DNA of 64,000 bases, taken from contig NZ_SIHJ01000001.1 of assembly GCF_007859765.1 (NCBI RefSeq), positions 3,327,156 to 3,391,155 of the forward strand, in the 5' to 3' direction. The stretch comes from Posidoniimonas corsicana. Lineage in GTDB: Bacteria; Planctomycetota; Planctomycetia; Pirellulales; Lacipirellulaceae. Below the pieces are notes generated by a model that searched no databases, was not told where the DNA came from, and saw only the letters and a program-made list of their open reading frames with translations. The position numbers and the translations under genes were made by a program. Of this stretch, positions 25,013-37,073 are shown one piece after another (positions within the stretch are counted from its first letter, which is position 1; each line of letters opens with the position of its first letter).

Positions 25013-28000
25013 ATGAAGCAGGTTAGCGGCGATTCCTCGAGCCAACCGGTGCAGCGCCATATTCGTGCTCGGTTCGAGCGACTCGAACCCCGTCACCTGC
25101 TGGCGGTGGTGATCAACGAAATCCACTACGACCCGGACATCAACACCGAGCGAGTCGAGTTCCTCGAGTTGCACAACACGGGCCCAGCGGCGGTCGACCT
25201 GTCGCAGTGGCGCATCGATGAGGCGGTCGACTACACCTTCCCAGATGCGTCAACGCTGCCCGCCGGCGGGTACCTGGTGATCACCCAGAACGCGTCCGAC
25301 TTCCAGGCCAAGTTCGGCTTCGCGCCGTTCGGCGAGTGGGAGGCCGGCGACAAGCTCAGCAACGACGGCGAGCGTATTGAGCTGCTCGACGCCGGCGGCG
25401 AGCTGATCGATGTCGTCACCTACCAGCCCGGCTTCCCGTGGCCCACCACCGGCGAGTACGGCAGCTCGCTGGAACTGATCAACCCGAACCTCGACAACGA
25501 CCTCGCCGGCAGCTGGCGATCGTCGGGCTTGTCCTCGGCGCCGGACGCCGGCGCGGTGCTGGTCGGCGCTGGCAGCGTGTGGCGGTACCGCAAGGGGATC
25601 GTAGCGAACCCGCCCACCAACGCGGGATCGCCTGCGAACGACTGGCGGCAGACAGGCTTCGTTGAGTCCAACGACGCGGTTGCTTGGACGGAGGGTCCAG
25701 CTTCGATCGGCTACGGCGACGGCGACGACGCGACCGAGCTGAACGACATGCGGAACAGCTACTCGTCGGTCTACACGCGGCGGTCGTTCACCCTAGACGG
25801 CGACATCCCCGACACGCTGGACCTGCGGATCTACGTGGACGACGGGGCCATTGTCTACATCAACGGTCTGGAGGTTGTGCGGGCGAACGTGTCGGCCGGC
25901 GTCAAGAATTACGACAGCCTCTCCGGCGTCAACCACGACGCCGAATGGGAGAGCTACACCCTGACCGGCGCGTCCTCCTACCTGACCTCCGGCGAGAACA
26001 CGGTCGCGGTTCACGTGCTCAACGGCACGCTCGGCAGCAGCGACCTGTCGTTCAACCTCGAGCTCGCCATCCCGGATGGGACCCTCGCCCAGCCGACCCC
26101 GGGGGCACAGAACCTGGCCTTGGTCGCCAACGCGGGGCCGCAGATCCGGCAGCTGAAGCAGTCGGTTGATCAGCCCCAGTCGGGCGAGGATGTGGTGGTC
26201 TCGATCAAGGCGACCGACCCCGACGGCGTGCAGCAGGTGACGCTCGAGTACCAGCTGGTCGACGCGGGCGCCTACGTCCGGCTTACCGACCCCGCGTACG
26301 ACGCCGGCTGGACCACGGTCGTGATGCGCGACGACGGGCTCGGCGGCGACGCCGTCGCCGGAGACGACGTCTATTCGGTTACGCTCGCCGGGTCGCTGCA
26401 GGTGAACCGGCGGCTGGTCCGGTACCGCGTCTCGGCCGTCGATACGCTGGGCGCCTCGGTGACCGGCCCCTACGCGGACGACCCGCAGCCCAACTTCGCC
26501 TACTTCGTCTACGACGGCGTGCCGGACTACACGGCGTCGCTCCGTCCAGGGGTGGAGCCGAGCGTGGTCTACAGCGGCGACGCACTTGACGACATCGCCA
26601 CGTACCACCTGATCGCCAACCCGACGGATGTCATCAATAGCCAGTACAACGGCCAGTACAACGAAGTGCAGTTCCGCGGAACGCTGGTGTACAACGGCGT
26701 GGTGTACGACCACGTCGAGTTCCGCAACCGTGGAGTGGCGTCCACGTACCAGGTCGGCAAGAACAAGTGGAAGATCGACTTCTTGCAGGGGCACGAGTTC
26801 CAGGCCTACGACAACTACGGCGTGCCCTACGCGGAAAAATGGGATGAGATCAATATCTTGCCCGGCACCAACCCGTGGTGGCGGAACGACGTCTCGACCG
26901 AGGGGACGGTGCTGTTCGAGCCGGCCGCGTTCAAGCTGTACGAGCTGGCCGGCGCCCCGGCGCCCAAAACCAACTACTTCAACTTCCGCGTAATCGACGG
27001 CGCGTCCGAGACTGGTTCGGACCAGTACGGGGGCGACTACTGGGGGCTCTACATCGGCATCGAGCAGCCCGACGGCAGCTTCCTGGACGAGCGGGGCCTG
27101 CCGGACGGCAACGTCTACAACATGCACCAGTCGGTGTTCGGCGCCACCAACCAGCGTCACCAGGGCTCCGAGTCGGTCACCGACCGGTCCGACCTCGCCG
27201 CGTTCGTGGCGGGCGCCGACGGCGGTTTCGAATCGCTCCAGTGGTGGGAGGAGAACCTCAACTGGGACGTCTACTTTGCGTGGAACATCATCAACCACCT
27301 GGTCAACAACTCCGACATCCGCCCCAACGAGAACGTCAACTACTACCGCAACGAAGAGACCGGCCAGTGGTACGTGATCCCCTGGGACCTCGACTTGACC
27401 TTTGAGGACGCGCCGCACCACGGCACGCCCGTGACAACGCGCGAGAACATCCGCACACTGCTGTCGCACCACCCCGCCGCGAAGCTCGCCTACGACAACC
27501 GCCTGCGTGAGGTGACCGACCTGCTCCTCAACAGCGGCGACGCCGCCCGCGTCATCGAAGAACTGGCCGGCGTGCTGACGCTGGGAACGGGCGACCTGTC
27601 GGTGGTGCAGGCCAACCAGGCGATGTGGGATTTCCACCCACGGAAAAATAAGAAGGGCATCTGGTACGAGAACTTCAACCCCAGCCTGCTGGCCAGTGAG
27701 GACTTTGCTGGGCTGGTCGACTACATGCAGGACTTTGTCGGCCCGGGCGGCTATGGCTACAACCTCGTGCAATCGCAGGGGTCGGACGCCAACATCCCTG
27801 CCACTCCTGGAATCTCGTACACGGGCGGCCCCGAGCACCCGGTCGACCAGCTCGTTTTCCAAACCACCCCGTTCAGCGACCCGCAGGGCGCGGGCACCTT
27901 CGCCGCCATGGAGTGGCGGATCGCGGAGGTCGTGAACGCTTCGGTGGTGAACTACGTCCAGGGGCAGCCGTACCTCTACGAGATCGAGGGGACCTGGGAG

Positions 28001-29281
28001 TCTGGCGAGCTGACCAGTTTCGATAGCCAGCTGGACGTGCCGGTCGACGCCCTGGCCGCAGGCCACACCTATCGCGCCCGCGTTCGGATGCAGGACACTT
28101 CGGGCAACTGGAGCCACTGGTCAGACCCAATCGAGTTTCTCGCCGGCGCCCCCGCGCTCACGCCGACCATCGCGGTGACCGAGCTGCACTACCACCCCAG
28201 CAATGCGGGCCTCGCCGACGAGAGCGACCAGGAGTTTATCGAGATCTTCAACACGGGGGATTCGGTGGTCGATCTGTCGGGGGTGCAGATCGCCGACTTC
28301 GCGGACGAGCCTTTTGTGTTCGCCGAGGGGGAGTCGCTCGGCCCGGGCGAGTACCTGGTGGTGGCCCGCTCGCCGTCGATCTTCCAATCGATCTATGGCG
28401 ATAGCGTCGCTCTTGCGCAAGGAGGCTTCGCTCCCGGCAACCTGAGCAACGGTGGCGAAACTATCTCCTTGCTCAGCGCCGAGGGCGTGGTGTTCCTGTC
28501 CTTTACCTACGATGACGCCGCTCCCTGGCCGACCGCCGCGGACGGCGAGGGCCCGTCGCTAGAGATCATCGACCCGTACGGCGACCCTGCGGATCCCACC
28601 AACTGGAGAGCGAGCGCCAGCATTGGCGGCTCTCCCGGCGCAGCCCAGGTGGTCCTCCCGCAACTCGCCGGCGACTACGACAGCAGCGGCGTGGTGGACC
28701 AGCTCGACTACGCCGTATGGCGGTCCACCTACGGGTCGACCCCGCTCACTCCGGGAGCGGGCGCCGACGGCAACGCGGACGGGCTGATCGACGCGGCCGA
28801 CTACTCGGTCTGGCGTGACAACTTAGGAGCGGTGCTCACACCCACGGAGTTGGGCGTGGCGAGCAGCCCTAATGCGGCGTCGGTAGGGAACATTGATGCC
28901 GATCGGGCCACCGATGGCCCCCCCCAAGAGCTCTCCGCCTGGCCAGTCGGTGAGCCAAGTGCACCGCTGGAGAGCGATCAAGCGATCATCTTTGTGGCCG
29001 ATGCAATTGCACCAGCGCCACGCACAGACGTGCTTGTAAACGAGCGGTCGGACGCCAACAGTGGGCGGCCGCTGCGTTCCTCCCCGACGCTGCATCGGAA
29101 TATCGACGCGGCGTTTGCACGCTTCACGGTCGAGGCAGACCGTAGCGAAGAAGTTCTCGCCGGTCCGTCTTCAGACGACGCATGGGACCCGATCGACGAC
29201 GCCGATAGCGACCCACGTCACGCGGACGCAATCTTCAGTCGGCCTGCGAGGCCGCTCGCGATGCCCCGACCGGGGTCCTGA
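25013..29281 (+). CDS. Large secreted protein: lamin-tail domains, CotH kinase-like domain, dockerin
   Basis: A 1422-aa protein. The LEPR-xLL motif (RFERLEPRHLLA) is at residues 20-31. A lamin-tail domain (about 31-150, INEIHYDPDINTERVEFLELHN) is followed by a beta-rich segment. A CotH-like kinase domain (about 520-895) shows VEFRNRGVASTYQVGKNKWKI, WNIINHLVNNSDI and WYVIPWDLDLTFED. A second lamin-tail domain (about 1045-1190, VTELHYHP) and a dockerin-like module (about 1220-1280, GDYDSSGVVDQLDYAVWR and GNADGLIDAADYSVWR) follow. The C-terminal 130 residues are low-complexity. CotH proteins of the spore coat phosphorylate protein substrates, so an extracellular kinase role is possible. Dockerins in planctomycetes probably mediate other calcium-dependent interactions rather than cellulosomes. 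Confidence 0.9.
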   Translation: MKQVSGDSSSQPVQRHIRARFERLEPRHLLAVVINEIHYDPDINTERVEFLELHNTGPAAVDLSQWRIDEAVDYTFPDASTLPAGGYLVITQNASDFQAKFGFAPFGEWEAGDKLSNDGERIELLDAGGELIDVVTYQPGFPWPTTGEYGSSLELINPNLDNDLAGSWRSSGLSSAPDAGAVLVGAGSVWRYRKGIVANPPTNAGSPANDWRQTGFVESNDAVAWTEGPASIGYGDGDDATELNDMRNSYSSVYTRRSFTLDGDIPDTLDLRIYVDDGAIVYINGLEVVRANVSAGVKNYDSLSGVNHDAEWESYTLTGASSYLTSGENTVAVHVLNGTLGSSDLSFNLELAIPDGTLAQPTPGAQNLALVANAGPQIRQLKQSVDQPQSGEDVVVSIKATDPDGVQQVTLEYQLVDAGAYVRLTDPAYDAGWTTVVMRDDGLGGDAVAGDDVYSVTLAGSLQVNRRLVRYRVSAVDTLGASVTGPYADDPQPNFAYFVYDGVPDYTASLRPGVEPSVVYSGDALDDIATYHLIANPTDVINSQYNGQYNEVQFRGTLVYNGVVYDHVEFRNRGVASTYQVGKNKWKIDFLQGHEFQAYDNYGVPYAEKWDEINILPGTNPWWRNDVSTEGTVLFEPAAFKLYELAGAPAPKTNYFNFRVIDGASETGSDQYGGDYWGLYIGIEQPDGSFLDERGLPDGNVYNMHQSVFGATNQRHQGSESVTDRSDLAAFVAGADGGFESLQWWEENLNWDVYFAWNIINHLVNNSDIRPNENVNYYRNEETGQWYVIPWDLDLTFEDAPHHGTPVTTRENIRTLLSHHPAAKLAYDNRLREVTDLLLNSGDAARVIEELAGVLTLGTGDLSVVQANQAMWDFHPRKNKKGIWYENFNPSLLASEDFAGLVDYMQDFVGPGGYGYNLVQSQGSDANIPATPGISYTGGPEHPVDQLVFQTTPFSDPQGAGTFAAMEWRIAEVVNASVVNYVQGQPYLYEIEGTWESGELTSFDSQLDVPVDALAAGHTYRARVRMQDTSGNWSHWSDPIEFLAGAPALTPTIAVTELHYHPSNAGLADESDQEFIEIFNTGDSVVDLSGVQIADFADEPFVFAEGESLGPGEYLVVARSPSIFQSIYGDSVALAQGGFAPGNLSNGGETISLLSAEGVVFLSFTYDDAAPWPTAADGEGPSLEIIDPYGDPADPTNWRASASIGGSPGAAQVVLPQLAGDYDSSGVVDQLDYAVWRSTYGSTPLTPGAGADGNADGLIDAADYSVWRDNLGAVLTPTELGVASSPNAASVGNIDADRATDGPPQELSAWPVGEPSAPLESDQAIIFVADAIAPAPRTDVLVNERSDANSGRPLRSSPTLHRNIDAAFARFTVEADRSEEVLAGPSSDDAWDPIDDADSDPRHADAIFSRPARPLAMPRPGS

Positions 29282-29482
29282 GACGCTCCGCTCGGATGGC
29301 GGCCCTCTTCATCACCGGCTATCCTGTCTGCCTGGGTCGCGATTCGCAGGCAAGATCGGACGAGTGCCCGCGAATACCCGGCTACTCAACAGTATCGGCG
29401 CTACACTGGGGCGGTTGGCTCGCCTGTGCTGGCTAGCGACTCCCTAGCGCGCTGCTCCTCGAATTGAGCGCAAGGACCACCA

Positions 29483-30790
29483 ATGCAGCGGCCAATCTCG
29501 CGCATCGTTCGCAACTGGTTCGCGTGGCTGATGGCCATGGTGCTGGTAGGTTCGCTGGCGGTCTGGTTCATCACGCGGCCCACGCTGCCCAGCCGGATTC
29601 TGATCGGCACCGCGGTGCGCGGGGGCCAGTACCACGAGGAGGGCCTCCGGATCGCGGAGGCGTTGGAGCGGCGGACCGGCCGCGACGCCGAGGTGGTTGA
29701 GACGTCCGGCTCAGAAGAGAACGCGGAGAAGCTCCGCGGCGGCGAGATCGACGTGGCGATTGTTCAGGCCGGCTCGGTGTCGCTGCAGGGGTTGGCGATC
29801 GTCACGCCGCTGCACCGCGACGTGGTGCACGTGATCGTCCGCAAAGCCCCTGACGACGGCAGCCCGCCCATCCGATCGTTCAGCGACCTGGCCGGGCGTG
29901 ACGTGATTGTCGGCAAACAGGGTTCGGGGATGCGGCGCAGCGCCACCGACGTGCTCGAGCACTACAACCTGCTGGGCGAAGTCACGCTGAGCGGGACCCA
30001 CTTCACCGAGCTGCTCAAGGACCCTGACCAGAAACACGCAGCAGCGATCGTCACGACCGGCGTCGAGAACGGCGACCTGCGTCTGGTGCTGGAGACCGGC
30101 GACTTCGACCTGCTGCCCCTAGACGCGTTGGCGCTCGACAAACGCTACCGCCACTTCGAGTACTACGAGATCCCCTCCCAGCTCTGGCCCCCGGTGCCAA
30201 CCAGGACCGTGCCCACGGTCGCCGCGTCGGCGCTGGTCGTCGTCCGGGAGAACGCGTCGTCGAGACTGGTGAACCTGCTCCTCGACTCGATCTTCGAGGA
30301 CAGCCTGCCCGAGTACTTCTCCACGCTGTTCTCGCCGCAGGAGGCGCGCAGCCTCACCCCGGCGCGGCTGCACCCCATGACCCGCAAGTACCATGATCCT
30401 TTTGGCAGGTACGGCGTGCTCCACACGGTGCTGGAGGGGCTCGCGGCGGGTAAGGAGCTGCTGTTCGCGCTCGGCGCCGCCATCTACCTCGTGTGGGACC
30501 GCTGGCGGCGCATCAAGGAACGCGAGAGCCAGCGGCAGATCAAGGAGCAGAAGAGCCGTCTCGACACCTACCTCGAGCAGACCCTCGAGATCGAACGCGC
30601 ACAGATGGACGTGTTCGATCCCACGCAGCTGCAGCGGTTCCTCGACGACGTGACCGACATCAAGCTCAAGGCGCTCAGCCGCTTGACGCACGAGGACCTC
30701 CGCGGCGACCGGACCTTCGCGATCTTCCTGATGCAGTGCGCCAACCTGATCAGCAAAATCCAGCTGAAGATCATCAACTGCACCAAGTAG
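29483..30790 (+). CDS. Membrane-anchored TAXI-family solute-binding protein
   Basis: A 435-aa protein. A membrane anchor lies at about 13-33 (WLMAMVLVGSLAVWFI). A TAXI-type periplasmic binding domain follows (about 36-300; ILIGTAVRGGQYHEEGLRIAEALE, GEIDVAIVQAG, DLAGRDVIVGKQGSGMRRSA). A second hydrophobic segment is at about 320-340 (GKELLFALGAAIYLVWDRW), then a charged coiled coil to the C-terminus. TAXI proteins normally deliver substrate to TRAP transporter membrane subunits, but the next gene, 38 bp downstream on the same strand, is an SDF symporter instead. The second helix and cytoplasmic coiled coil are extra to the classical family and would let the sensor signal or scaffold across the membrane. 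Confidence 0.85.
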   Translation: MQRPISRIVRNWFAWLMAMVLVGSLAVWFITRPTLPSRILIGTAVRGGQYHEEGLRIAEALERRTGRDAEVVETSGSEENAEKLRGGEIDVAIVQAGSVSLQGLAIVTPLHRDVVHVIVRKAPDDGSPPIRSFSDLAGRDVIVGKQGSGMRRSATDVLEHYNLLGEVTLSGTHFTELLKDPDQKHAAAIVTTGVENGDLRLVLETGDFDLLPLDALALDKRYRHFEYYEIPSQLWPPVPTRTVPTVAASALVVVRENASSRLVNLLLDSIFEDSLPEYFSTLFSPQEARSLTPARLHPMTRKYHDPFGRYGVLHTVLEGLAAGKELLFALGAAIYLVWDRWRRIKERESQRQIKEQKSRLDTYLEQTLEIERAQMDVFDPTQLQRFLDDVTDIKLKALSRLTHEDLRGDRTFAIFLMQCANLISKIQLKIINCTK

Positions 30791-30828
30791 CCCCGCCCGT
30801 CCCTTAATCAAGACAAGGCAGAACGCGC

Positions 30829-32496
30829 ATGGAGAGCTCCAGCAACGGCGGCCACGGAAACACGACCCTCTACATCGTCGGCGCCATCCTGCTGGCGGTC
30901 GCGACGGCGATCATCGGGCCGGCGGTGCTGGGGGAGAGCGTCCGCCCCGCCGTGGAGGTGCTGGATGTCGGGGGCGAGATCTTCCTGCGGCTGCTGCAGA
31001 TGGTGGTCGTGCCACTGGTGATGGCGAGCGTGATGAGCGGCATCCTCGGCCTGGGAGACGTCCGCAAGCTCGGGCGGCCCGGGGCGTACGCGGTTTCGTA
31101 CTACCTGTGCACCACGGTGCTGGCGGTGGTGACGGGCCTGATCGTGGTGAACATCGTCAACCCGGGCCGCGGCATCGACCCGGTGCTGGTGGAGGACGCG
31201 CGGCAGGAAGGCGAGCAGACGCTGGCCCACGTGGCGGACCGGCGCCAGGGCCGCCGCATCGAGTGGCACAACGTCACGGGCGACCGGGCGGCAGCGGCGG
31301 GGAGCAGCAAGAACGCGGCCGTACCGGAAGAGGGCGTCTGGAGCGTGCGGGTGGCGATCGACCAGGTAGGCGAGGCCGACACCGCCGCCGAGGCGCGCGT
31401 GCTCTGGAGTCACGATGGCGATGTGTTCGAAGAGGCGCCCGACGGGCTCTTCAAGGCCGGACTGGAGCCCGGGGTCTACACGACCAGCCCGGTCGTGCCG
31501 ATCCCCGAGGGCGCCGAGTTCGTACGTCTGGATTTCACTCCGCAGGACGGTGGCGAGCGCAGCGTGGTCGAGGCGTACCTGGTCGCCGGGGCACCCTCCA
31601 TCGGCGACATCTTCAAAAACCTGGTGCTGATGCTGTTCACCAACAACCTGCTGGCCTCGATGGTAGAGATCAACCTGCTGCCGCTGATCGTGTTCAGCAT
31701 CGCGTTCGGCGCGATGCTCACTACGCTCGGGCCCAGGGCGGACACCATCTCTGAGCTGGTGCTGAGCATCAACGATGCCCTAATGAGCTTCATCCTGCTG
31801 CTGATGCGTCTGGCCCCGCTGGGCATCTTCTGCCTGGTCGCCGCGCGGTTCGCCCACGCGCAGCTCGACGGCCAGTTCCTGACGCTCCTCAAGACGCAGG
31901 CCTGGTACATGACGAGCGTGCTGGTCGGCCTGGGGATCCACGCGCTGGTGACGCTGCCCCTGCTCCTGTGGTTCTTCACCCGCCGCAACCCGTGGACCTA
32001 TTTGAGACAGATGTCGCAGGCGGTCCTCACGGCGTTCTCCACCGCCAGTTCCACCGCGACGCTCCCGGTCACGATGGAGTGCGCCGAAACCAAGGCCGGG
32101 GTTTCCCGCCGCTCGACCGAGTTCGTGCTCCCGCTCGGCGCGACCATCAACATGGACGGCACCGCCCTGTACGAGGCGGCGGCGGCCATCTTCATCGCGC
32201 AGGCCTACGCCTTGGTCGACCCCGCCTTCGTGCTCACGTTCGACAAGCAGGTGGTGATCGCGGTGACCGCCACGCTGGCGGCGATCGGCGCGGCGGGGAT
32301 CCCGGAAGCCGGCCTCGTCACGATGCTCATCGTGCTCAACGCGGTGGGCCTGCCGCTAGAACTGATCGGGCTGATCCTGCCCATCGACTGGCTGCTCGAC
32401 CGCTTCCGCACGGCCGTCAACACGTTTGGCGATTCGGTCGGCGCCGCAATCGTCGACAAGGGGTTCCCACCCGACAACGGCGCCGCTGCCGCCTGA
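30829..32496 (+). CDS. SDF-family dicarboxylate/amino acid:cation symporter with a large extra loop
   Basis: A 555-aa symporter of the DAACS family, which typically moves glutamate, aspartate or C4-dicarboxylates with Na+ or H+. The core shows the HP1 serine-rich segment (AFSTASSTATLPVTMEC), the TM7 NMDGT motif (INMDGTALYEAAAAIFIAQ) and HP2 (GAAGIPEAGLVTMLIVLNAVGLP). After the NPGRG of TM3 there is an insertion of over 100 residues (about 111-250) with beta-like sequence (GVWSVRVAIDQVGE, VYTTSPVVPIPEGAEFVRLDF) before TM4. Known members have a much shorter 3-4 loop. Topology would place it outside the membrane. The gene follows the TAXI protein closely and probably forms an operon with it. Confidence 0.9.
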   Translation: MESSSNGGHGNTTLYIVGAILLAVATAIIGPAVLGESVRPAVEVLDVGGEIFLRLLQMVVVPLVMASVMSGILGLGDVRKLGRPGAYAVSYYLCTTVLAVVTGLIVVNIVNPGRGIDPVLVEDARQEGEQTLAHVADRRQGRRIEWHNVTGDRAAAAGSSKNAAVPEEGVWSVRVAIDQVGEADTAAEARVLWSHDGDVFEEAPDGLFKAGLEPGVYTTSPVVPIPEGAEFVRLDFTPQDGGERSVVEAYLVAGAPSIGDIFKNLVLMLFTNNLLASMVEINLLPLIVFSIAFGAMLTTLGPRADTISELVLSINDALMSFILLLMRLAPLGIFCLVAARFAHAQLDGQFLTLLKTQAWYMTSVLVGLGIHALVTLPLLLWFFTRRNPWTYLRQMSQAVLTAFSTASSTATLPVTMECAETKAGVSRRSTEFVLPLGATINMDGTALYEAAAAIFIAQAYALVDPAFVLTFDKQVVIAVTATLAAIGAAGIPEAGLVTMLIVLNAVGLPLELIGLILPIDWLLDRFRTAVNTFGDSVGAAIVDKGFPPDNGAAAA

Positions 32497-32500
32497 CCGG

Positions 32501-33649
32501 CTACCGACCGCCCGTCCGGCGGCGCGGACGCAGTTCGGGGGCCGAGTCTCGCTTCACCGTGGGTTTGGCGTGGAGCCACGCCTGCCGCGCGATAACGGCC
32601 GCCACCACGGTAGCGGTGAGCTCCTTGTGCCTCTCAATGGCCGCGCCCCACCAGGCGCCCTGGTCTTCGGCCGTGGCGGGATCTTCGGCGAGCGCGACGT
32701 CGATCGCGTTCTCGTCGGCTCGGGCCTCGCGGGACGCCCGCTCGGTGGAAGACGCCGCCATCCGCTCCAGCCCAGGCGATCGGGTCCCGGGCAGAATAGC
32801 AGCGACGGTTGATCCCGCTTCTTCGGCGCTAAGGGATGCCTGAGTTTCTCTCTGGTCCTGCGTGGCCGACTCGCCACGCAGGCCGAGGTCGATCTCCGAC
32901 GGGAATTGGCGGAAGGCCGATTCGAAGTGCGGGACGGACTCCTGACCGGACTCTGCCTGCGCCGCAAACCCCGCCATCTCAAACGCCCAGGCGCGGTCCC
33001 AATTGCCCTGCTCGAACCTAACGCGGTCGGCAGGACCAATCGAGAGCGCGCGGGGGCTGTCCGTCGTCGCGGCCAGAGCGCTCGCCGAAGATACCCCCGC
33101 GTTCGAGTCGGCCGGGCCGTGCGACGACTCGAACTCGGCCAACGCGGCCCGCAGCGGCGTCTCGGCCGCGGAGAGGGGATCGGCCAGGCCCGTCTTACTT
33201 GTTGCTCCACTGCCCGCCGAGAATGGGGGCAACGGGGCAATCTCAGGCGACGGGGTAACCTTCGTGATGGTCAGGTAGCTGTTGCTGGTCCCGGCGACGA
33301 CGGGCGCTTCGTCAACGGCGTCGGTATCGCGGTCGGCGCCGGCGTACGACTGCAGAGCCACGTCCGAAACAGAGAAACGGATGCTGCCGTCCTCGGCGTA
33401 GCTCAGCGTCAAGAACTGCGTCGGGTTTCCCTTGTCCCACCAATCACCGAATAGTGTGCCGCCGCCGGCTAAATCGAACGACCCCGGCAACTGCACGACC
33501 GACTGAGTTTCGGTGAACAGCGGCGTCTCGAGTGAGAGCCCATCGCCGGACAGCAGCTCGCGCCGTTCACAACCCTCGAAGGCCAACCGGCGCCCCCGAC
33601 CGACACTTACCTTCCGTCGGGGACGTTGCAGCAGCGACCGGATGTTCAC
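32501..33649 (-). CDS. LEPR-type secreted hypothetical protein
   Basis: A 382-aa protein whose N-terminus has the planctomycete export-like motif (RRLAFEGCERRELLSGD) after a basic stretch. Residues about 50-100 hold a short beta segment (FDLAGGGTLFGDWWDKG, FLTLSYAEDGSIRFSV). The remainder is low-complexity and rich in Ala, Ser and Glu, with a hydrophobic stretch near the C-terminus. The GTG start has GAGG 8 bp upstream. It is convergent with the SDF symporter, the stops 4 bp apart, and lies 29 bp upstream of the kinase stop. Function unknown. Confidence 0.72.
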   Translation of the reverse strand: MNIRSLLQRPRRKVSVGRGRRLAFEGCERRELLSGDGLSLETPLFTETQSVVQLPGSFDLAGGGTLFGDWWDKGNPTQFLTLSYAEDGSIRFSVSDVALQSYAGADRDTDAVDEAPVVAGTSNSYLTITKVTPSPEIAPLPPFSAGSGATSKTGLADPLSAAETPLRAALAEFESSHGPADSNAGVSSASALAATTDSPRALSIGPADRVRFEQGNWDRAWAFEMAGFAAQAESGQESVPHFESAFRQFPSEIDLGLRGESATQDQRETQASLSAEEAGSTVAAILPGTRSPGLERMAASSTERASREARADENAIDVALAEDPATAEDQGAWWGAAIERHKELTATVVAAVIARQAWLHAKPTVKRDSAPELRPRRRTGGR

Positions 33650-33678: not shown

Positions 33679-36432
33679 CTACTTGATATTACCAGAGTCG
33701 AGGATCTGATTCAGCTCTTTCCTCCTCCGCTCGATGTCCTGCCCCTCCTCGGCCCGATTGGCCCTGCGGAGCAGCTCTGCGAAGTTCTGGTACTGCCGGT
33801 TTAGCACACTTGCCTGGGCCAGCGAAATGCCACCCTGCTCGGCCAGCTCCTCTTGCACGTCCACGGCCTTCTCGAAGGCTTCCAGGGCGGCCTCGTCTTG
33901 GCCGGCGAACTGCAGGGCCACCCCGCGGTTGTTCCACAGCGCCGCCATAGCGCTGCGGTAGCTGGTCTGTTGCGGAAAATCGCCGATCAGCCCGATCAGG
34001 TACCCCTCGGCAACCCGGAAGGCTTTCTGACTCTCGTGCGGTTCCCCGATCCGGGCGAGGGCCAGGCCCAAGTTGCTGTGGGTGATCGCCAGCTCGCGGC
34101 GGTGACGCGGGATCAATGGGTTGCGACGCACGAGCTGCTCGATCTGACCGGCGGCGTCGCGGTACCCCTCGGCCGCGGCCGCCCAGTTGCCCTGTGCTCC
34201 CTGCATGGCCGCCAGGTTGTTGTAGGTCATCGCCAGGTCGGCCTTGAAACCGGTATCCTCGGGGTACTCCTGCACGAGGCGCCGCATCGCCAACCGCGCG
34301 TCCCGGCTGGCGGTGATCGCCTCGACCGGAGAATGCTCCCGGAGGGCCTCACTGAGGTTGCTCTTCGCAACCGCGATGTTGCGTACGTAGCGGGGCTCCT
34401 CCGGCGCGGAACGCGACGCGTCTTCGAGCCACTTGATCGACTCGCGGATGTTCGACGCCGCCAAACCGCTGCGCCCGTCGCGGCGGAGCAGCAGCCCGAA
34501 GTTGGAGAGCGTCTCGGCCAAGGCGTTCGCGGTGTCGGCGTCCCCCGGGGACTCGATGGCGCACTCTCGGAGGATCGTGATCGCTTCGCCGAACAGCTGC
34601 TCAGAATCATCAACCACGCCGAGCTGCCCCTGCACGCGCGCCAAGGCGCCCAGGCCAAGCCCGAGCTCTAGGCAGGCGAGCGGTGCGCCGTCGGACTGTT
34701 CGGTCTCAACAGGCGACTGGCGCCAGTGCTCCACCGCCTTAGCGTAGAAGTCGCGAGCGGTGATCGTTTCGCCAAGCCGCTCGGCAATCGCACCCGACTT
34801 GAAATAGGTTGCGGCCATGTCGCTGGCGACCGACTGATCGTCGGGCGTCGACTGCAGGAACCGCTGGTAGTACCCCAGGGTGTCGGACAGCAGCTCGCGC
34901 CGCAGCGTCTCGGCCCCCGGGATGTCGGACAGCCGGTCGGCCAGGTCGCCGCCGAAGTGGTCCACCACGGCTCGCGCCTGCTCGAAGTGCTTCTCCGCCA
35001 GGGCCTGGCTTGCCTGCGACTGACGCAGCGCCTCGGCCGTCTGGCGCCCCGCGGACGCGATCCAGATCGCGCTGGCGACTGACACTACTGACACCACCAC
35101 CAGGGCGGCGGCGGCCGAGATCGCCACGCCGCGGCGGCGCGCGACCCACTTGGCCGTGCGGTCCGCCAAAGAAGGGCGGCGGGCCGCGGTTGGCTTCCCG
35201 TCGAGGAACCGGCGGAGGTCGTCGGCCAACTCCTCGGCAGTCGCGTACCGGTCGTCGCGGCGTTTCTCCATCGCCCGCAGAACGATGTTCTCCAGGTCGG
35301 CCGGGATCGCGGGGTTCAGCTTGCGGGGGCGCGTCGGATCGTCGTTGAAGACGCGGTGCAGCAGTTCCTCGTGGTCCTCGCCCGAGTGCGCGGGCTGCAG
35401 CGTTAGCAACTCGTACAGCGTCGCCCCCAGACCGTAAACGTCCGTGCGGCAGTCGATCATGTCGCCCCGGCCCCGCGCCTGCTCGGGGCTCATGTACCGC
35501 AGGCTGCCGACTAGGTCGCCCGGCATGGTCATGCTCATCTCGGACTGCACCCGGGCGAGGCCAAAGTCCGTGACCCACGCCTTGCGGTCGCGGTCGACCA
35601 GCAGGTTGCCAGGCTTGACGTCGCGGTGGACGACGCCGTACCGGTGGGCGTAGTCGAGCGCGTCGGCAGCCTCGGCGCCCAGGCGCGCCACCGCCTGGAA
35701 GAACGCGGCGCCGCGGATCGCCCCCAGGCTCGATGGCGGTCGGTCGCTCCGCGAGTCGATGCGGGAGGCGGCCCGTGGGGTCGCCTCGTCGGTGGCCGAC
35801 GCGGCGCCGTCGCGTTCCGAACGCATCTCGGCGATTGCCTCGGCGAGCGAATGCCCGTCGATAAACTGCATCGCGTAGAAGTGGATGCCCCGCTGCTGCC
35901 CCACCGCGTACACGGGAACGATGTTCTGGTGGTGCAGGCCGGCGGCGGCCTGCGCCTCGGTGGTAAAGCGGGCGGTCTGCCGCTCGTCGAGCATCGCGGC
36001 GAACGGCAGCACCTTGAGCGCGACCCGCCGGTTGAGCGAGAGCTGCCACGCCTCGTACACGACGCCCATGCCGCCGCGCCCGATCACGTTGATCAGCTCA
36101 AAGTCGCCCACACGCTTGTTGACGGTCGGCTTGTCCACCCCGACCGCCGCTTCATAGTGGACGGTTTCGTCGTCCAGCAGGTTGCCATCGCAGCGCAGGC
36201 CGTTGAGGGGGGAATCACCCAGCGACGACTGCAGCAGGTGCAGGCCCTCGAGGTAGCCGGGTAGATGTTCTGCGAGGTCGGGGTGCCGCCGCGTAAGCTC
36301 CTCGAGGGTCGGCCACTCCCCATTCTCCATCGACTCCAAGTACTCGTCGAGGATCTGGGCAAGCTTCTCCCGGGTCGCGTCGCTAGGGGCGTCGGCGCCT
36401 CGGTCGGCCGGCGGTGGGGTCGGCTGGCTCAT
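33679..36432 (-). CDS. Membrane Ser/Thr protein kinase with TPR-like C-terminus
   Basis: A 917-aa receptor-type Hanks kinase. The kinase domain (about 105-400) has the Gly loop GRGGMGVVYEAW, VALKVLPF, the catalytic loop HRDVKPGNLLVD, the DFG motif in VTDFGLARV and YMSPEQARG. A single membrane helix is near 437-460 (AAALVVVSVVSVASAIWIASA). The remaining 450 residues are helical and TPR-like (EAITILRECAIESPGDADTANALAETLSNFGLL), predicted outside. The ATG at 36432 overlaps the ECF sigma stop as ATGA, so the two are translationally coupled. ECF-kinase pairs are common in Planctomycetota, where the kinase may replace an anti-sigma factor by phosphorylating the sigma. Confidence 0.93.
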   Translation of the reverse strand: MSQPTPPPADRGADAPSDATREKLAQILDEYLESMENGEWPTLEELTRRHPDLAEHLPGYLEGLHLLQSSLGDSPLNGLRCDGNLLDDETVHYEAAVGVDKPTVNKRVGDFELINVIGRGGMGVVYEAWQLSLNRRVALKVLPFAAMLDERQTARFTTEAQAAAGLHHQNIVPVYAVGQQRGIHFYAMQFIDGHSLAEAIAEMRSERDGAASATDEATPRAASRIDSRSDRPPSSLGAIRGAAFFQAVARLGAEAADALDYAHRYGVVHRDVKPGNLLVDRDRKAWVTDFGLARVQSEMSMTMPGDLVGSLRYMSPEQARGRGDMIDCRTDVYGLGATLYELLTLQPAHSGEDHEELLHRVFNDDPTRPRKLNPAIPADLENIVLRAMEKRRDDRYATAEELADDLRRFLDGKPTAARRPSLADRTAKWVARRRGVAISAAAALVVVSVVSVASAIWIASAGRQTAEALRQSQASQALAEKHFEQARAVVDHFGGDLADRLSDIPGAETLRRELLSDTLGYYQRFLQSTPDDQSVASDMAATYFKSGAIAERLGETITARDFYAKAVEHWRQSPVETEQSDGAPLACLELGLGLGALARVQGQLGVVDDSEQLFGEAITILRECAIESPGDADTANALAETLSNFGLLLRRDGRSGLAASNIRESIKWLEDASRSAPEEPRYVRNIAVAKSNLSEALREHSPVEAITASRDARLAMRRLVQEYPEDTGFKADLAMTYNNLAAMQGAQGNWAAAAEGYRDAAGQIEQLVRRNPLIPRHRRELAITHSNLGLALARIGEPHESQKAFRVAEGYLIGLIGDFPQQTSYRSAMAALWNNRGVALQFAGQDEAALEAFEKAVDVQEELAEQGGISLAQASVLNRQYQNFAELLRRANRAEEGQDIERRRKELNQILDSGNIK

Positions 36433-37073
36433 TCTTCGTCCGTCCCAGCATACTCGGCCCGCAACTGCTCCAACGCCCGCAGCCACAGCATCCGCGCCGC
36501 GCCCGAGGTGCGGTCCATCTGCTCGGCGACATCAGCGAACGACAGCCCCTCGATGTTGCGGAGCCGGATCACGCGGCGGTAGTCCTCAGGCAGCTTCGCG
36601 AGCACCGCCGCCATGGCGGTCTGGGTTTCCTGCCGGCGGAGGTCGGTGCTGGGGGTTTCCTCGTCGCTGGCGAGAAGAGCCGAGAACCGCCAGGACGACT
36701 GCTCCACGCCACGCCGCAACCGGTCCAGCGAGACCTCCCGCCGCACATCGCGCTTCGCGGCGACTAGGTTGCGTTCAACCACTCGCATAAGGTTGTTCAC
36801 CAGGATCCGACGCATCCAGCCCACAAACTGCTCCGGCGAGTCGCCGCGGAATCTGCTGAAGTCCCGGTGGGCTTCGTAGAACGACTCCTGCACCACGTCC
36901 GACGCGCTCACCCTGCGTCGCAGGCGGTCGTCCATCCGGGACGAGGCAACGTACTTCAGGTACTCAGAATAGAGCCCCATCAGCCGCCCCAGCGATGATT
37001 TCGAACCGGCCAGCGCTCGGTCAAGCAGCAGCGCAGGGAGCTGGGAGGGGCTGGACGGTTCCATCGGACGCAC
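36429..37073 (-). CDS. ECF RNA polymerase sigma factor (kinase-associated)
   Basis: A 214-aa sigma-70-family ECF factor. Region 2 (about 25-95) shows LLGRLMGLYSEYLKYVASS-like helices and VSASDVVQESFYEAHRDF with FVGWMRRILVNNL. Region 4 (about 150-205) shows LPEDYRRVIRLRNIEGLSFADVAEQMDRTSGAARMLW, a normal promoter-recognition HTH. No anti-sigma gene is nearby; instead it overlaps a Ser/Thr kinase gene by four bases. Phosphorylation-based activation is therefore likely, though inferred. A stretch of Gly-rich sequence and no obvious promoter lie upstream. Confidence 0.92.
   Translation of the reverse strand: MRPMEPSSPSQLPALLLDRALAGSKSSLGRLMGLYSEYLKYVASSRMDDRLRRRVSASDVVQESFYEAHRDFSRFRGDSPEQFVGWMRRILVNNLMRVVERNLVAAKRDVRREVSLDRLRRGVEQSSWRFSALLASDEETPSTDLRRQETQTAMAAVLAKLPEDYRRVIRLRNIEGLSFADVAEQMDRTSGAARMLWLRALEQLRAEYAGTDEE

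Follow-up and report, generated by a model that had tools for sequence, protein, structure and literature searches.

A TAXI-family binding protein gene paired with an SDF symporter gene in Posidoniimonas corsicana: a possible transporter-receptor unit

In a stretch of 64,000 nucleotides from Posidoniimonas corsicana (GCF_007859765.1, contig NZ_SIHJ01000001.1, positions 3,327,156-3,391,155, forward strand; this whole stretch is referred to as the window) we found a gene encoding a TAXI-family binding protein directly followed by a gene encoding a symporter of the SDF family. The TAXI gene (29483-30790, + strand) encodes a protein of 435 amino acids (aa) that is predicted to cross the membrane with two helices and to end in a helical domain on the cytoplasmic side, and the SDF gene (30829-32496, + strand) encodes an SLC1-type protein of 555 aa. 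Both genes are intact, and the 38-bp gap between them (30791-30828) lacks terminator-like sites on the + strand. Scanning 29100-32800 for patterns, a weak kind of evidence, revealed neither promoter-like sites nor + strand terminator-like sites, and Rfam gave 0 matches in 28900-33200. The neighbourhood of a TAXI protein and an SDF symporter, which had been proposed in an earlier note on this DNA, was borne out by the profile matches, the short gap and the shared strand.

The first protein matched the Pfam profile NMT1_3 (PF16868; E 1.8e-21, 77.4 bits with a cut-off of 27) and TIGR02122 (88.0 bits with a cut-off of 84.35). Its AlphaFold2 model (8 sequences, mean pLDDT 82.1, pTM 0.62) showed a helix of residues 5-31, the TAXI fold, a long helix of residues 308-374, and two further helices (380-400 and 410-434). 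The N-terminal helix (29495-29575, + strand; hydropathy peak at residues 8-26) is a probable signal anchor. The ligand-binding domain, supported by VIA-align, the alignment to structure 8s4j and residue counts, comprises residues 34-309 (29582-30409, + strand). The long helix (30404-30604, + strand; hydropathy peak at 316-334) is predicted to be a second membrane helix that continues into a coiled coil, with its start modelled at low confidence (pLDDT 58-59 for residues 301-320). Model and hydropathy thus agree, as predictions, with the membrane anchor, second helix and coiled coil of the earlier note. Comparison with relatives delimited a conserved C-terminal domain at residues 342-431 (30506-30775, + strand), which according to the predicted topology should be cytoplasmic; the region 30493-30787 gave no Pfam match up to E 10. 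In all 23 relatives compared, which were hand-picked among the closer ones, this domain was closer to that of the window protein than the TAXI domain was.

The nearest solved folds were those of TAXI proteins, including the glutamate-bound VcGluP and TtGluBP (VIA-align Z 23.6-25.7 over about 260 residues; 14.7 for the next family). The alignment with VcGluP (8s4j) covered 260 residues at Z 24.8 and 3.0 A. Y45 and Q93 of VcGluP are described as the two residues of most weight for glutamate (PMC11574862), and Y50 and Q95 of the window protein align with them. Among 92 other distinct TAXI frames, Y50 was kept in 86 and Q95 in 89, while S77 (VcGluP S75) was kept in 83 and an acidic residue at position 113 (VcGluP E125) in 82. 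VcGluP Y200 and M201 were not conserved in the window protein. The conserved residues suggest a glutamate-type amino acid as the ligand.

The second protein matched the SDF profile PF00375 with 370.8 bits, in two pieces on either side of an insertion. Its AlphaFold2 model (32 sequences, pLDDT 85.1) gave fold matches to human ASCT2 (Z 50.2) and EAAT3 (Z 49.4). By sequence comparison we located the NMDGT motif at residues 441-445 (32149-32163, + strand) and the motif DRFRTAVNTFGD of transmembrane helix (TM) 8 at residues 524-535 (32398-32433, + strand), where D524, R527, T528 and N531 are kept as in EAATs. Asp and Thr at the positions of EAAT3 D444 and T448 are reported to go with amino-acid carriers, and other residues with dicarboxylate carriers (PMC3737229). 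D524 and T528 occupy exactly these positions, as in amino-acid-type rather than DctA-type proteins, and the symporter is predicted to be cation-coupled and to carry glutamate or aspartate.

The insertion follows TM3 (residues 118-256; 31180-31596, + strand) and gives a TM3-TM4 loop of 153 residues, in line with the more than 100 extra residues claimed before. The model placed seven strands within residues 158-253, with block pLDDT of 87-96 for residues 151-250, and the region 31165-31620 gave no Pfam match up to E 10. By this model the insertion is a separate extracytoplasmic domain, presumably on the outer side if, as we assume, the usual SLC1 topology applies. The insertion is 70% identical between the window and the related locus L009, compared to 81 and 88% for the two core parts, and 27% identical between the window and loci L016-L018, compared to 68-80% for the core. 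The insertion therefore diverges faster than the SDF core.

A DctM-type TRAP gene was not found within the window, which confirmed that no TRAP membrane subunit lies nearby. The sole strong DctM of the genome is encoded about 78 kb beyond the window end, next to a DctP gene of its own, so that the TRAP system of this genome owns a separate binding protein, and a second, weak DctM match (25.8 bits) lies elsewhere. The TAXI gene thus has no cognate DctM-type gene in its vicinity. The whole genome showed one TAXI match and four SDF genes (five search rows, of which two are pieces of the window SDF).

The pair recurs in other genomes, where many of the loci are on metagenome assemblies with contig ends close by and where flanking genes were called with a simple script. 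A TAXI gene followed by an SDF gene on the same strand was found in the window, at L009 and in genome G857 (L210). Likewise on one strand, a gene for a kinase-TAXI fusion followed by an SDF gene was found at L019 and L168, the latter cut by the contig end, and the reverse order, SDF then TAXI, at L020 and L029-L032. Among 28 SDF loci of the close clade that were found by scanning, a same-strand TAXI gene adjoined in seven (L009, L019, L020, L029-L032), and at L028 a TAXI gene lies about 1.8 kb from the SDF gene on the opposite strand. Searches with TAXI added further pairs (L160, L168, G857). At L160 the TAXI gene is preceded, on the same strand, by no more than the final 121 codons of an SDF gene (L160:6154-6516), as in a broken gene or an assembly fault.

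The frequency of the pair was assessed in draws of genomes from the order and the phylum. In 196 genomes of the order, TAXI was found at E 1e-10 in 27 and SDF at E 1e-90 in 10. Six genomes held both, compared to 1.4 expected if kinship is ignored, and the two genes were adjacent in three (that of the window, G857, and G869, the genome of L009). The TAXI list of the order comprised 32 places, nine of them fetched without long flanks; seven of these had 1.5-kb flanks, in which there was no SDF match. In 392 genomes of the phylum, TAXI was found in 40, and beside SDF only in the window's own genome (1/392). The flanks of the 40 phylum-draw TAXI loci that were fetched, of 44 places outside the window, contained no SDF match. 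Eleven neighbour genes at 10 phylum-draw and related TAXI loci showed no known transporter family in Pfam; they matched beta-lactamase, cytochrome b, CEMIP, HisG, phosphoglycerate dehydrogenase, PQQ, PilM, FMN_bind with TPR, and in three cases nothing.

The SDF tree placed four verrucomicrobial SDFs as sister to eight planctomycete ones (98/92), inside a wider planctomycete set. Over 17 labelled rows TAXI adjacency requires three changes, two of which are forced by strongly supported branches. Co-transfer of the genes to Verrucomicrobiota would fit the SDF tree, but the TAXI tree has little resolution, backbone included. Of 288 verrucomicrobial genomes, none except G412 had a TAXI match below E 1e-60 or an SDF match below E 1e-100; three others had weak TAXI and two others weaker SDF matches, and G412 was bound to appear as the centre of this draw.

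The pairing is real, occurs in both gene orders and in both Planctomycetota and Verrucomicrobiota, and is not unique to the window genome, but it is a minority state. This rarity would fit two independent genes of glutamate metabolism that have stayed neighbours, by chance or because they are expressed together, and whose products are uncoupled. The same applies to the SDFs of L010-L012, which are 76-77% identical to that of the window and have no adjoining TAXI gene, and to the TAXI protein of G794, which is 68% identical and has no SDF in its flanks. Recurrence across several lineages of two phyla, in both gene orders and with two TAXI architectures, is nevertheless far above the approximately 0.15% per TAXI gene expected (a rough estimate from 4 SDF genes, two sides and about 5,500 genes), and the excess of order genomes with both genes points the same way. 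We consider mere neighbourhood unlikely.

According to the earlier note the long loop should be present only when SDF is paired with TAXI, and should serve as docking site for the TAXI domain. Loop lengths were measured on relatives from one genome per species and on loci of the genome draws. The TM3-TM4 loop had 150-179 residues in 12 close relatives (L009-L020) and G857, 38-73 in 15 other close relatives, and 23-36 in 22 more distant loci (L036-L057); at L033 it was not measurable in a frame of less than 380 codons. The remaining close SDFs of the order draw, seven in all, had loops of 36-67 residues, and the SDF beside the kinase-TAXI gene of L168 one of 94. A single origin of the long loop did not emerge from the SDF tree, in which long-loop proteins form an open fork with three short-loop ones. 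A TAXI gene adjoins only five of the 14 long-loop SDFs (window, L009, L019, L020, G857) and is not the next gene in the other nine (L010-L018), where the downstream flanks of L013 and L017 are short (0.6 and 1.0 kb). Conversely, the four verrucomicrobial SDFs of L029-L032 stand beside TAXI with loops of 40 residues. The supposed restriction of the insertion to paired SDFs was refuted by these counts, on which we rejected the insertion as a TAXI dock.

A loop that is modelled confidently as a domain and probably faces outwards would suit such docking, which we regard as very improbable nonetheless. In the nine genomes of L010-L018, a close TAXI was encoded elsewhere (E <1e-100) in four (G393, G394, G397, G398) and a distant one only in four; G395 (L012) showed no TAXI match at E 1e-5, although its incomplete assembly may hide one. 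The contig of L018 carries a kinase-TAXI gene on the same strand, at a distance of about 4.5 kb from the SDF gene. Loops of phylum-draw SDFs had 39-69 residues in eight of nine cases. In the ninth, the more distant SDF of L136, the loop behind TM3 has a size of its own, 120 residues; the genome of this SDF, G322, does not belong to the 40 genomes of that draw with TAXI and showed no TAXI match at E 1e-10. Three genes beside unpaired long-loop SDFs matched FAD_oxidored, EF-hand and nothing in Pfam.

Among relatives we found TAXI domains joined to protein kinases. At 20 distinct loci, spread over 19 genomes, a single frame encoded a kinase domain followed by a TAXI domain (37 rows, with 17 places fetched twice), all from genomes reached through SDF or TAXI searches and not from a census. 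All seven fusions submitted to Pfam, of the 20, contained Pkinase and NMT1_3, and a hydrophobic segment (at least 1.6) separated the two domains in 16 of the 20. In these fusions the kinase would lie inside and the TAXI domain outside the cell. One example beside a long-loop SDF is a frame of 743 codons (L019:3529-5757) with the protein kinase domain first and TAXI C-terminal; it and the fusion of L168 (L168:921-3299) are the two of the 20 directly upstream of an SDF gene. The products of L019, L168, L216-L228 and others are candidates for a family of receptor kinases whose binding residues are of the glutamate type. Furthermore, in two genomes that a tool grouped with the window's family (G712 and G814; L214:6253-9039 and L215:4174-6972) a TAXI gene of the window architecture is followed by a separate kinase gene on the same strand, whose product carries a C-terminal hydrophobic stretch.

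We therefore favour, with a probability of roughly one in two, the interpretation of the pair as a transporter-receptor unit in which the TAXI protein acts as a nutrient receptor more than as a feeder. It would be held in the membrane by its two helices, and its outer domain would close on a glutamate-type amino acid. The closure movement might travel along the second helix and the coiled coil and so reach the conserved domain in the cytoplasm. That domain would inform an intracellular partner of the nutrient supply, with a Ser/Thr-kinase pathway as the most likely recipient and the symporter itself as a possible one, while the SDF protein would import glutamate or aspartate with cations. Signalling, and any contact between the TAXI and SDF proteins, are here deduced from sequence and models. 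This interpretation is favoured because the cytoplasmic domain, for which a feeder has no evident use, is better conserved than the TAXI domain, and because the fusions and tandems wire TAXI domains of this group to kinases.

Several observations weigh against it. Pkinase was matched by the relatives and not by the window protein itself, whose C-terminal domain is absent from the kinase fusions, making these different architectures, and has no Pfam match. No kinase gene was seen travelling with the window-type pair. Four of the 20 fusions lack a clear membrane segment between kinase and TAXI, and 18 of the 20 were not seen directly beside SDF, although some contigs end nearby. Moreover, feeder TAXI proteins for secondary transporters have been published, and the window's own genome encodes two single proteins (L003:1453-3642 and L004:1453-3690) in which an SDF-like permease carries a C-terminal SBP_bac_3 domain.

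The last two points also speak for a secondary transporter that depends on a binding protein and has SDF as its permease, in which the anchored TAXI domain would capture glutamate and pass it on, as do the tandem genes in both orders and the matching predicted ligands. In TAXI-GltS of Bordetella pertussis, described in 2025, a TAXI protein is coupled to the elevator-type glutamate symporter GltS, with functional coupling still to be verified according to its authors, who also state that the need for an elevator mechanism would be tested by additional classes of secondary transporters that depend on a binding protein (PMC12344293). Feeding is opposed by the 21 of 28 close-clade SDF loci without TAXI as the next gene, by the absence of SDF from the 40 phylum-draw TAXI flanks, and by the conservation of the cytoplasmic domain, and appears rather unlikely to us. 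The earlier suggestion of a new kind of binding-protein-dependent transporter is supported in part, by the recurrent TAXI-SDF adjacency and by the glutamate-type residues in both proteins; for a feeder, "new kind" was too strong given TAXI-GltS. The conservation of the cytoplasmic domain and the fusion of relatives to kinases speak for a sensing role more than for a feeding one.

More tentatively, TAXI domains might serve a signalling module of planctomycetes as its extracytoplasmic receptors for glutamate, either fused to a Ser/Thr kinase, in tandem with one, or as a kinase-less transmembrane receptor that forms a co-sensor complex with an EAAT-like SDF symporter in the manner of DcuS with DctA, itself a transporter of the SDF family, and the SDF-TAXI cassette might have been exchanged as a whole between Planctomycetota and Verrucomicrobiota. 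The pair points to a second family of TAXI partners outside the TRAP transporters, namely SDF elevator transporters. The fusions offer a candidate ligand class, glutamate-type amino acids, for a family of planctomycete receptor kinases; the stimuli that activate bacterial protein kinases have been called an outstanding question (PMC6069109).

With respect to the surroundings of the pair, a kinase gene with TPR repeats according to Pfam lies beside a gene resembling, by eye, one for an ECF sigma factor (33682-37073, - strand). We examined this kinase (33682-36486; Pkinase and TPR) as a possible partner and judged it unrelated, because none of the genes that cluster with it lies near L009; such relatives were found near TAXI at L089, L109 and L117. 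Upstream of the pair, 25013-29281 encodes a protein of 1422 residues that by eye resembles a secreted lamin-tail/CotH/dockerin protein.

Membrane-anchored TAXI proteins of secondary TAXI transporters have reportedly been treated by Roden in 2023, to judge from the title, and would resemble the window protein in their membrane anchoring. The open-licence literature searched yielded no case of TAXI paired with SDF or fused to a kinase, which is no proof of absence. The window symporter shares its fold (Z up to 50.2) and the NMDGT and TM8 motifs with the SLC1 proteins EAAT, ASCT and GltPh, and differs from them by the seven-stranded insertion after TM3. TAXI-GltS as described is similar in that a TAXI gene is coupled to a glutamate symporter instead of a TRAP permease, upstream, downstream or fused, and that GltS is modelled as elevator type. 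However, GltS belongs to the family ESS (2.A.27) and the window partner to SDF, which places the pair outside the TAXI-GltS class; BP0403 is described as a lipoprotein that consists of an N-terminal domain and a helical one and lacks a cytoplasmic part, and the word kinase does not occur in the main text of the report (PMC12344293). In the GlnH-GlnX-PknG system of Actinobacteria a solute-binding protein for aspartate and glutamate is likewise proposed to report to a Ser/Thr kinase, but by the account given these are separate proteins with a binding protein of another family, and no symporter is mentioned (PMC6069109). In Escherichia coli, DctA is described as forming a sensor unit with the membrane receptor DcuS, which differs in being a two-component sensor kinase with a PAS domain that responds to C4-dicarboxylates (PMC4280142). 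The window pair resembles GlnH-GlnX-PknG and DctA-DcuS in idea and belongs to neither.

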